Source of the DNA: Bacillota bacterium | GTDB taxonomy: Bacteria; Bacillota; UBA4882; UBA8346 | Length of the DNA: 64,000 nucleotides | Direction of reading: 5' to 3' | Assembly (NCBI GenBank): GCA_029776205.1 | Contig: JAKOTQ010000015.1 | Span: 62,001-126,000 of the forward strand | Shown here: positions 951 through 16,253 of the stretch, piece after piece | Position numbering within the stretch: the stretch's first letter is position 1 | Layout of the letters: the number at the start of each line of letters is the position of its first letter | Notes under the pieces: model-generated | The model's input: the letters and a program-made list of their open reading frames with translations, nothing else | Databases searched by the model: none | Told to the model about the DNA's origin: nothing | Position numbers and translations under genes: made by a program

Positions 951-1047
951 CTCTCATCTTTCAGGTTTCCCTGCCGGAATTGGCACCTGCGACTCCCAGG
1001 TTGCCGAAGGTTCATCGGGCCGTTCCCTCCCCTTCTCTTGATAAGAG
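951..1047 (-). promoter_or_regulatory. SAM-I (S-box) riboswitch aptamer
   Basis: The minus strand carries the S-box signature in order: CTCTTATCAAGAG at the 5' end, GGGGAGGGA, GCCCGATGA, CTTCGGCAACC, GCAGGTGCCAATTCC, GCAGGGAAACC and the closing GAAAGATGAGAG that pairs with the first strand (P1). Spacing and order match the family consensus. It sits in the leader of the trans-sulfuration enzyme gene and is followed by a terminator, so it acts by SAM-dependent transcription termination. Confidence 0.97.
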
Positions 1048-12351: not shown

Positions 12352-12535
12352 ATACATAGTTCACAGTATTCAGGAATTAGGAAACAGGAGGCAGGAGATA
12401 GTTGATGGACAGCTATCCAGTTTCAAGTTCCCAGCCCCGGATTTGCCAATTACGTGGACACTACATCTAAATCTACAGTTTTCGGTGCGTAGTTCCCGCA
12501 ACTGACTACTGACTGCTGACTACTGAAAGATCGCA
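12352..12535. repeat. Degenerate low-complexity repeat between spoVAC and spoVAD
   Basis: Plus-strand GGAAACAGGAGGCAGGAGATAG (12380-12401) and the tandem ACTGACTACTGACTGCTGACTACTG (about 12500-12525) flank less ordered sequence; on the minus strand TACTGTGAACTATGTA ends it. The same words recur at about 16370-16535, 31998-32056 and 44100-44360. The tandem part supplies the TAG stop codon of spoVAC. Confidence 0.7.
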
Positions 12536-12978
12536 TGAATCAGTCCCACAAAAAAGGCAGTGACAACACCATAGGTGATGACCGAACCGGCAAGCATAAA
12601 CATTTTGCTCCCAATCCCCTGAACTAATCCTTCCTTCTTGAATTCCAAAGCTGCCGAAACCATGGAATTGGCAAACCCGGTTACAGGTACAGCCAGTCCG
12701 GCGCCGGCATAAACGGCCAGTTTGTCAAAGTATCCAAGCCCGGTCAGTAAGGCCCCAATAAAGATCACGGTGGCAACTGCCGGATTACCGGCTTCTTCCG
12801 GAGATAGGTGCATCACAACCGTGTAAAAATCGATTAAGGCTTGGCCAACGATGCAGACGATACCTCCGCTCAAGAAAGCTTGCCATGCATTTTTAGCTAC
12901 ATTCGGTTTGGGATTGGTTTTTTGGACCAGCTTCTGATACTTTTGTTGAGTGCTGTTCAGTTTTGATTGTTTCCCCAT
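12520..12978 (-). CDS. spoVAC: Stage V sporulation protein AC
   Basis: A 152-residue membrane protein with a polar N-terminal 35 residues, then AFLSGGIVCIVGQALIDFY, VIFIGALLTGLGYFDK, AGAGLAVPVTGFANSM and a final hydrophobic helix. These are SpoVAC hallmarks; SpoVAC acts as a mechanosensitive-type channel component for dipicolinate. ATG 12978 sits 7 bases after AAGGGGA. It is the first gene of the leftward spoVA operon. The last codons run into a tandem repeat, with the stop TAG inside CAGTAGTCAG. Confidence 0.93.
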   Translation of the reverse strand: MGKQSKLNSTQQKYQKLVQKTNPKPNVAKNAWQAFLSGGIVCIVGQALIDFYTVVMHLSPEEAGNPAVATVIFIGALLTGLGYFDKLAVYAGAGLAVPVTGFANSMVSAALEFKKEGLVQGIGSKMFMLAGSVITYGVVTAFFVGLIHAIFQ

Positions 12979-13010
12979 CACACAATCCCCTTGTTAAAAA
13001 GTTAATTGCC

Positions 13011-13313: not shown

Positions 13314-14627
13314 TTATGCTTTACACGCCTTAACCTTCTTGATCCGGCGCTCTTCAACTTCCTCGACCTTGAAAACAACCTTCGGTAACTCAATCACCGG
13401 CTGTTCCCCTTCCTCGGGTATCCGGCCCAATTCCCCGATAAGGAATCCACCTAAAGTGTCAAAATCTTCCGTTGGCAGATCGAGATTGAGTATTTTATTG
13501 ACTTCGTCTAAGCTGATGCATCCTTCCATCAGGAACGTGTTTTCATCCAACTTTTCATATTCGGCCACTTCTTCATCATGTTCATCGAAGATATTGCCGA
13601 CGATCTCTTCCAACAAATCTTCAATGGTAACGATTCCCGCAGTCCCGCCATACTCGTCCACAATGATAGCCATATGCGTCTTCTGGCGCTGCAACTCCCG
13701 GAGGAGCTCATTATTCTTTTTAGAAGCCGGGACAAAATAGGGTTTACGCATAATATCGGCCAATTTAATTTCATTGATCTTCCCGCCTTTAAGATACGGA
13801 AGCAAATCCTGAATATGCAAAATCCCCACAATATTGTCAATGGTCTCTTCATAAACCGGAAGTCTGGAAAATCGCTCCGAAATCGCCGTTTCCACGATCT
13901 CTTCCGGGGTCGCATCAATCGGAAGGGAAACCAGGTCTGTACGATGAGTCATGATCTCCGAAACCATAGTGTCATCCAGCTCAAAAATATTGTCGATCAT
14001 CTCTTTCTCAGTGGTTAAGATGACCCCTTTTTCCTGTCCCACATCGACCATCAACCGGATCTCTTCTTCCGTAATCTTCTCATCTTCGGTATTGGGATTA
14101 ATCCCAAAGCACCGGATAATCACGTTGGTCGACAAACTTAACAGTCTCACAAAGGGACTGGCGATTTTATTAATAAGGCTCAATAAACTAATAGCCGATC
14201 GGGAAATCGGTTCCGGATACTGCATAGCAATGCGTTTGGGAACCAATTCTCCCAAGACTAATGAAAAATAGGACAACAAGATCGTGATGATAATGACCGA
14301 AATCACATTGAGCACCGCCGGCTTGAGCGGAACTCCGAGCTCAACTAGCATCCTGGTCATCTCATCGGCAAAACTTTGAGAAGCCACGGCACTAGCCATC
14401 AATCCCGACAATGTAACTCCGACCTGAATCGTAGCCAAAAATCGGCTGGGTTCGCTGATCAGGTTGTACAACAACCGGGCTTTCTTATCGCCTTCCTCCG
14501 CCTTACGGCGTACCTTTTGGTCATTCAATGAAATAATGGCAATCTCAGACGCTGCGAAGAACGCATTCACTAGAATTAAGAAGAATAAGAAAAAGGCCTG
14601 AACTAACATACTACCGTCCGAATCCAT
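13314..14627 (-). CDS. CNNM/CorC-HlyC family membrane transporter (DUF21-CBS-CorC)
   Basis: A 437-residue protein. Residues 1-200 form the DUF21 membrane domain (FFAASEIAIISLND, LVLGELVPKRIAMQYPE); the CBS pair follows (IMTHRTDLVSLP to KNNELLRELQRQKTHMAIIVDEYGGTAGIVT), then the C-terminal CorC_HlyC domain (ENTFLMEGCISLDEVN). Relatives export or balance magnesium or cobalt. ATG 14627 gives better spacing from AAAGGA than GTG 14633. The gene has a strong promoter 145 bases upstream and a full terminator hairpin right before its ribosome site, so it is probably controlled by attenuation. Confidence 0.92.
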   Translation of the reverse strand: MDSDGSMLVQAFFLFFLILVNAFFAASEIAIISLNDQKVRRKAEEGDKKARLLYNLISEPSRFLATIQVGVTLSGLMASAVASQSFADEMTRMLVELGVPLKPAVLNVISVIIITILLSYFSLVLGELVPKRIAMQYPEPISRSAISLLSLINKIASPFVRLLSLSTNVIIRCFGINPNTEDEKITEEEIRLMVDVGQEKGVILTTEKEMIDNIFELDDTMVSEIMTHRTDLVSLPIDATPEEIVETAISERFSRLPVYEETIDNIVGILHIQDLLPYLKGGKINEIKLADIMRKPYFVPASKKNNELLRELQRQKTHMAIIVDEYGGTAGIVTIEDLLEEIVGNIFDEHDEEVAEYEKLDENTFLMEGCISLDEVNKILNLDLPTEDFDTLGGFLIGELGRIPEEGEQPVIELPKVVFKVEEVEERRIKKVKACKA

Positions 14628-14643
14628 CGTCACCCGTTCCTTT

Positions 14644-14766
14644 CAAAAAAATAAAAGACTTTAAACAGTCCACAAAGGACTGTTAAAGTCTTCCGTTTCA
14701 GATTGCTTTATATGAGTTAAACTCGGTAGGTCATCCATTTCCATTCACCAGATAAACTAATACTGA
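14644..14766 (-). promoter_or_regulatory. Candidate regulatory leader with intrinsic terminator before the CorC-type gene
   Basis: The leader is about 135 bases from the predicted start near 14766. Its last part is a 16-bp hairpin (plus positions 14655-14692, one bulged A) followed by TTTTATTTTTTTG, and the AAAGGA ribosome site comes directly after the T-run. No gene lies between promoter and terminator, so transcription must be able to pass it conditionally. The upstream part has a small hairpin (GAGTTTAACTC) and a GGTGAATGG-ATGACC segment. I do not recognise a known riboswitch; it does not match the M-box as I know it. Confidence 0.6.
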
Positions 14767-14771
14767 AATCA

Positions 14772-14800
14772 ATAATATCCGATCTAGCATCTTTTGTCAA
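14772..14800 (-). promoter_or_regulatory. Strong sigma-A promoter for the CorC-type gene
   Basis: On the minus strand, consensus TTGACA (14795-14800) and TATTAT (14772-14777) are exactly 17 bases apart. It lies about 145 bases upstream of the start codon with no gene between. Confidence 0.8.
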
Positions 14801-16021: not shown

Positions 16022-16097
<76 letters not shown>

Positions 16098-16176
16098 ATA
16101 TGATCACGTTACTTAACTATTGGGAAATTTATAAAGTACTCACCTATTTTTTAATAGGAAAATAAATAAAAAACAC

Positions 16177-16253
16177 TGGTGGCGGTGACTGGGATCGAAC
16201 CAGTGACACTGCGGGTATGAACCGCATGCTCGTACCAACTGAGCTACACCGCC
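16177..16253 (-). tRNA. tRNA-Met (anticodon CAT, elongator type)
   Basis: A 77-base cloverleaf on the minus strand: acceptor GGCGGTG paired with CACCGCC, anticodon arm TGCGG-TTCATAC-CCGCA, T-arm GGTTCGATCC and encoded CCA. The paired G1-C72 and the lack of three GC pairs in the anticodon stem exclude an initiator tRNA. A CAT anticodon could also be tRNA-Ile2 with lysidine, but the body resembles clostridial elongator tRNA-Met. Confidence 0.94.

Follow-up and report, generated by a model that had tools for sequence, protein, structure and literature searches.

The leader of a CNNM/CorC-type transporter gene in the window, by which we mean the whole 64,000-nucleotide stretch of Bacillota DNA analysed here, can be read from its sequence, with considerable confidence, as a ribosome-operated attenuator that works through a leader peptide. 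A short open reading frame (uORF) with its own Shine-Dalgarno sequence, conserved as a peptide among relatives, lies before the gene that it would regulate, and its end overlaps a terminator hairpin. We favour, with moderate confidence, the further reading that this attenuator is tuned by Mg2+ through intrinsic ribosome destabilisation (IRD), as the nascent N-terminus is acidic and proline-rich across the family and the target belongs, by its protein family, to Mg2+ transport.

The leader lies on the minus strand. Its sigma-70-type promoter (14772..14800) consists of TTGACA (14800-14795), a 17-bp spacer and TATTAT (14777-14772), agrees with the consensus at 11 of 12 bases and is conserved in the genus-mate L003. 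Promoter-like matches in the region numbered 9 against 6.8 expected, which is no clear excess. Transcription probably starts near 14765, giving a leader of 132 nt. An intrinsic terminator hairpin spans 14655..14692, with a stem of 16 pairs (14692-14655) and a folding energy of -20.1 kcal/mol, and is likewise kept in L003. It is followed by a T-run (14645..14658), the Shine-Dalgarno sequence AAAGGA of the CNNM gene (14638..14643) and the start of that gene. The original prediction had described this promoter, a leader of about 135 bases and a 16-bp hairpin with a T-run before the ribosome site, and in all three respects it holds. It had also stated that no gene lies between promoter and terminator, and here it was mistaken. 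Nearly the entire leader is occupied by a uORF of 27 codons (14661..14744, minus strand), encoding the peptide MEMDDLPSLTHIKQSETEDFNSPLWTV followed by a stop codon and preceded by the Shine-Dalgarno sequence GGTGA (14745..14749), which is kept in L003. The uORF starts 21 nt past the inferred transcription start and reads ATG GAA ATG GAT GAC CTA CCG AGT ... ACT GTT TAA (14744-14661). A second in-frame ATG at 14738, giving MDDLPSL..., has a better Shine-Dalgarno spacing than the first. The hairpin overlaps the last third of the uORF, and the stop codon falls within the 3' arm of the stem. The idea that the hairpin does no more than terminate transcription of the upstream EamA gene was rejected, as the promoter sits between EamA and the hairpin; nor can the hairpin simply be EamA's because only about 20 nt separate it from the CNNM start, too short a distance for another promoter.

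The target gene (13314..14633, minus strand) was assigned by domain and structure matches to the CNNM/CorB type, with a DUF21/CNNM domain, a CBS pair and a CorC_HlyC domain. It encodes 439 amino acids, starting from GTG at 14633 or ATG at 14627. The protein matched the structures 7m1t and 7m1u, and its GELVPK aligns to GEIGPK of CorB 7m1t, in line with a GE(L/I)xPK motif. Judged by its family, the protein would transport Mg2+. Members of the CNNM/CorB family function in Mg2+ efflux; mpfA mutants of S. aureus do not grow at high Mg2+, and yhdP mutants of B. subtilis have a raised Mg2+ content (PMC8242095). The gene is the only CNNM gene in the 99% complete genome (G000), in which no M-box riboswitch (RF00380) was found by a search that does detect the M-box of B. 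subtilis. Directly downstream of it lies a SpoVAC-family sporulation gene (12520-12981, minus strand), with spoVAD/spoVAE-like genes, identified by eye, among the neighbours down to 10949; since spoVA-type genes adjoin the CNNM gene, the host is taken to be a spore former. Elsewhere, the window carries a SAM (S-box) riboswitch (RF00162, 87.6 bits; 951-1047, minus strand) and two tRNA genes (16025-16253, minus strand).

The uORF is not confined to the window. Relatives and a collection of species genomes supplied CNNM orthologues, and 145 distinct upstream regions were scanned, 50 of which contain a Shine-Dalgarno-preceded uORF starting with paired acids. After removal of doubtful or overlapping uORFs 43 leaders were kept, the window's and 42 from other Bacillota. 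The typical peptide is MDD(N/D/E)P(G/E)(D/E)... with a length of 21-43 amino acids; examples are MDDNPGDRRSCMVLWCRLLKTSNRLKPFFYRRP (L139), MDDEPGEEGDSDPTMRLRDKAKIVWKIRYYRRI (L042), MEENAGDIRSSIISNDLLIGFGKRL (L182), MSDSDDPESSNTVINKNSLFVIDGFQA (L211) and MEMDDEPGETHS... (L119), the last of which has the MEMDD start of the window. Under one common intergenic filter, such a uORF precedes 39 of 105 CNNM genes but, among the other genes of these loci, 4 of 180, and the CNNM uORFs of this kind span at least seven families. In one genome, G382, both CNNM paralogues are preceded by a leader of this kind (L139 and L122). A DNA search of the window's own genome revealed no second copy of the leader; a pattern match there (L134, MDDFPGDEAL...) was rejected as a chance hit, since it is the 3' end of a longer frame that resembles a tyrosyl-tRNA synthetase. 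Over the phylum, the pattern ATGGAYGAYNNNCCNGRNGA occurs at 29 places, little above the background of about 16 for the reversed pattern, and therefore we counted only matches with a Shine-Dalgarno sequence and a short frame. Nine short MDDxP(G/E) frames with a Shine-Dalgarno sequence occur in the loci fetched by pattern from several hundred genomes, and every one of them precedes a CNNM gene. A clear uORF of this type is missing before many CNNM orthologues, including some that are 57-62% identical (L005, L010, L033), and this counts against the Mg2+ reading. The distant CNNM genes L195 and L196 (41-43% identity) are preceded by strongly acidic uORFs of about 50 amino acids, MDDSTDSDLGPSD... 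with a GTG start and MDDPDSESEPPDP... with a TTG start, and the acidic theme may thus reach past the close orthologues.

The acidic N-terminus was also recovered from ATG uORFs that were chosen for a Shine-Dalgarno sequence and not for acids. At least three acids at residues 2-10 were found in 37 of the 63 uORFs that precede close CNNM orthologues, compared with 4 of the 97 that precede other genes (P = 5e-15). Acid density is 0.31 in residues 2-10 and 0.056 in the remainder of the same peptides. By position, the counts are D36/E4 at residue 2, D35/E7 at 3, N/D/E at 4, P28 at 5, G27/E9 at 6 and D16/E14 at 7. As D and E replace each other at residues 2, 3 and 7 and Pro 5 uses all four of its codons, it is the charge or residue that is kept and not the codon. 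The substitution rates gave a modest signal (seven closest pairs summed, pS 0.14 and pN 0.08), and the comparison across all pairs whose amino-acid identity is at least 45% carries a bias from that very selection; the case therefore leans on N-terminal composition and on the reading frame.

The window's uORF is a divergent member of this family. With the acids E2, D4 and D5 and a single proline (P7), its N-terminus stands at the weak end of the family's acidic/proline range, and it has no Y-Y-x-R end; its divergence is a point against the Mg2+ reading. In L003, whose CNNM protein is 92% identical to the window's, the conserved blocks are the promoter, the Shine-Dalgarno sequence with the uORF start and the N-terminal codons, and the terminator, while the sequence between them is poorly conserved. 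The N-terminal codons differ by GAC/GAT and CCG/CCT, and the length by one whole codon. The middle of the uORF is not conserved between the two (pS 0.25, pN 0.22), which again counts against the Mg2+ reading.

The end of the uORF is positioned where a ribosome could disturb either a terminator or a hairpin that sequesters the ribosome-binding site. In 16 leaders with terminators, including L048 recalculated with its MDD uORF, the uORF stop codon ends 8-12 nt into the 5' arm of the hairpin and so belongs to the stem; it sits deeper in the hairpin in the window, L003, L009 and L019. Several Paenibacillus-type leaders have no intrinsic terminator, and there the uORF end overlaps an anti-Shine-Dalgarno sequence. 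Among leaders lacking a T-run, the complement of the CNNM Shine-Dalgarno sequence adjoins the uORF stop in L042 (TGA TCCTCC ... GGAGG), with the same arrangement in L012, L040, L051, L058, L203 and L224. This complementarity exceeds that of shuffled sequences (combined P = 4e-5), and when folding was computed with a ribosome set on the uORF stop, the Shine-Dalgarno sequence became more accessible in these leaders. Against this stand five terminator-less leaders that show no anti-Shine-Dalgarno sequence, in three of which the main Shine-Dalgarno sequence was not reliably located. Since a ribosome at the uORF end would block either platform, a finished uORF is predicted to turn the CNNM gene on and an unfinished one to leave it off.

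From this geometry we infer the following course of events. Once transcription has begun near 14765, a ribosome would load onto the uORF. At low cytoplasmic Mg2+, the acidic and proline-containing nascent N-terminus (MEMDDLP in the window, MDDxPG(E/D) in most relatives) would destabilise the ribosome, which would drop off early, so that the terminator folds and the CNNM gene stays off. At high Mg2+, a stable ribosome would reach the stop codon in the terminator and prevent the hairpin, RNA polymerase would read through and the Mg2+ exporter would be made. In the Paenibacillus-type relatives, the ribosome at the uORF stop would mask the anti-Shine-Dalgarno sequence, giving control of the same sign at the level of translation. 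Mg2+ is favoured as the signal above all because the sign predicted by the geometry is the sign an exporter needs. A wider claim, to which we give about even credence, is that these peptides form a widespread and as yet undescribed Bacillota family of direct Mg2+ sensors for CNNM exporters, a mirror image of mgtL in which completion means ON, joined in evolution with two expression platforms as riboswitch aptamers are.

The same uORF and the same geometry could also serve another signal, with pausing or stalling at the (Y/F)Y-x-R-x-stop end, ABC-F factors, EF-P or the general state of the ribosome in place of Mg2+-dependent drop-off. The peptides often finish with this motif, with varying codons and even where no terminator constrains the sequence (L042, L058, L084, L139, L204), and it possibly marks a pause at the stop codon. 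EttA-type ABC-F factors also target acidic stretches (PMC11282234). However, the motif is missing from the window, L003, L009, L019, L211 and L213, all of which retain the acidic start, and the target gene is of the Mg2+ efflux type. We regard a different signal as a less likely but serious alternative.

Classical amino-acid attenuation, in which scarcity of charged Asp, Glu or Pro tRNA would stall the ribosome and set the hairpin, could draw on the acidic and proline codons close to the uORF start. Moreover, Paenibacillaceae do have a poly-Asp/Asn leader before a synthetase-like gene. In several Paenibacillus-type genomes (L147, L148, L149 and L150, at about position 1510 on the match strand) a short Shine-Dalgarno-preceded frame, MDDGDDDDDDDNNN..., precedes a gene recognised by eye as aspartyl/asparaginyl-tRNA synthetase-like, and it looks like a leader for tRNA-sensing attenuation. 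The CNNM uORFs, by contrast, contain only 2-5 scattered acids, and the free exchange between D and E would be incompatible with a sensor of specific codons. Such a mechanism would also hardly be expected to control a metal exporter, and neither the alignment of 13 leaders nor folding of the window's leader revealed an alternative antiterminator structure. This mechanism therefore seems improbable to us. We attach equally little probability to the uORF encoding a trans-acting small protein, directed for example at the transporter, with the hairpin as an ordinary partial terminator. Conservation at the peptide level would suit such a protein, and small proteins often neighbour the gene of their partner; yet only the N-terminus and, in many peptides, a few C-terminal residues are conserved while the middle is free, and the peptide end is positionally tied to the hairpin or the anti-Shine-Dalgarno sequence.

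The original prediction had seen the layout of a riboswitch or attenuator, with an ion- or nucleotide-sensing RNA as the natural control of a metal exporter. The attenuator part stands and an ion remains a plausible signal; the sensing RNA is not supported, since outside the uORF the leader is too short to hold an aptamer. No covariance model among the 4227 Rfam families matched the leader at the gathering score, and a permissive search returned weak, unrelated matches only, in agreement with the earlier view that the leader is possibly undescribed and does not look like an M-box, yybP-ykoY, S-box or T-box. The whole leader folds better than shuffled sequences (z -2.8) because of the terminator; the preceding 73 nt fold slightly worse than shuffles (z = +0.85). 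A covariance check on orthologue leaders had been proposed as support, and RNAalifold on 13 leaders with terminators recovered a single conserved structure, the terminator hairpin, whose upper stem shows several pair types. No conserved, structured aptamer was seen ahead of the expression platform, either in this alignment or in the folding of the first 73 nt; what is conserved there is the start codon and the acidic/proline N-terminus of the peptide, with synonymous codon changes. A by-eye likeness of GGTGAATGG...ATGACCTAC to the fluoride (crcB) RNA was rejected, as there was no match at the Rfam threshold, the 5' part lacks structure and conservation of structure is confined to the terminator. 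A new metal- or nucleotide-sensing riboswitch is thus very improbable, although promoter, leader and terminator do precede a transporter gene, because the 5' part folds no better than shuffles and no Rfam family matches.

Should the Mg2+-tuned leader-peptide attenuator prove correct, the ribosome itself would sense Mg2+ to control export, just as enterobacteria use it to control import, and IRD would be a regulatory principle beyond that group. It would also explain how a genome that lacks an M-box and has a single CNNM gene could link export to Mg2+. In the open-access literature we found no description of a leader peptide or uORF before CNNM genes of Bacillota, of an exporter-ON sign combined with an intrinsic terminator, or, within the literature searched, of any regulator of the Gram-positive CNNM/CorB exporters (MpfA, YhdP). 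Nor did we find there a demonstration of IRD in Bacillota leaders, which counts against the Mg2+ reading. The principle of a leader peptide acting through IRD is already known from enterobacteria.

IRD is known to be caused by acidic and proline-containing nascent N-termini; ribosomes on mgtL (EPDP) abort at low Mg2+, an effect that is lost once the acids are mutated (PMC11282234, PMC11552253). Like mgtL of mgtA in E. coli and Salmonella (PMC11282234), the uORF described here is short, acidic and proline-containing and precedes a Mg2+ transport gene, and ribosome stability would be the sensor. The target here is an exporter, the platform is an intrinsic terminator or an anti-Shine-Dalgarno sequence instead of a Rho site, and the completed uORF is predicted to mean ON, the opposite sign. 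The likeness thus concerns the proposed working, and we claim no sequence homology.

The mgtQ uORF before mgtB in Salmonella operates via Asp2 and Glu5 (PMC8092293). It resembles the present family in having acids at positions 2 and 5 and a proline at 4, with translation abortion acting on the downstream Mg2+ transporter (PMC8092293), but it has 8 codons, lies between genes and frees the ribosome-binding site by abortion, whereas completion is the predicted ON state here. In Salmonella, high Mg2+ induces both corC and mgpA, and for corC an IRD sequence at the N-terminus has been suggested as a cause (PMC12421838). CorC/YbeX with its N-terminal IRD and YoaL before mgpA in enterobacteria are similar in tying IRD or a leader peptide to a CorC-domain protein induced by high Mg2+ (PMC12421838). 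The IRD sequence of CorC lies within the gene itself; in the CNNM leaders it would be carried by a separate uORF with a terminator. The M-box (ykoK, RF00380) also places a terminator leader before Mg2+ transport genes, but it does so with an aptamer, in the place of which the CNNM leader carries a uORF.
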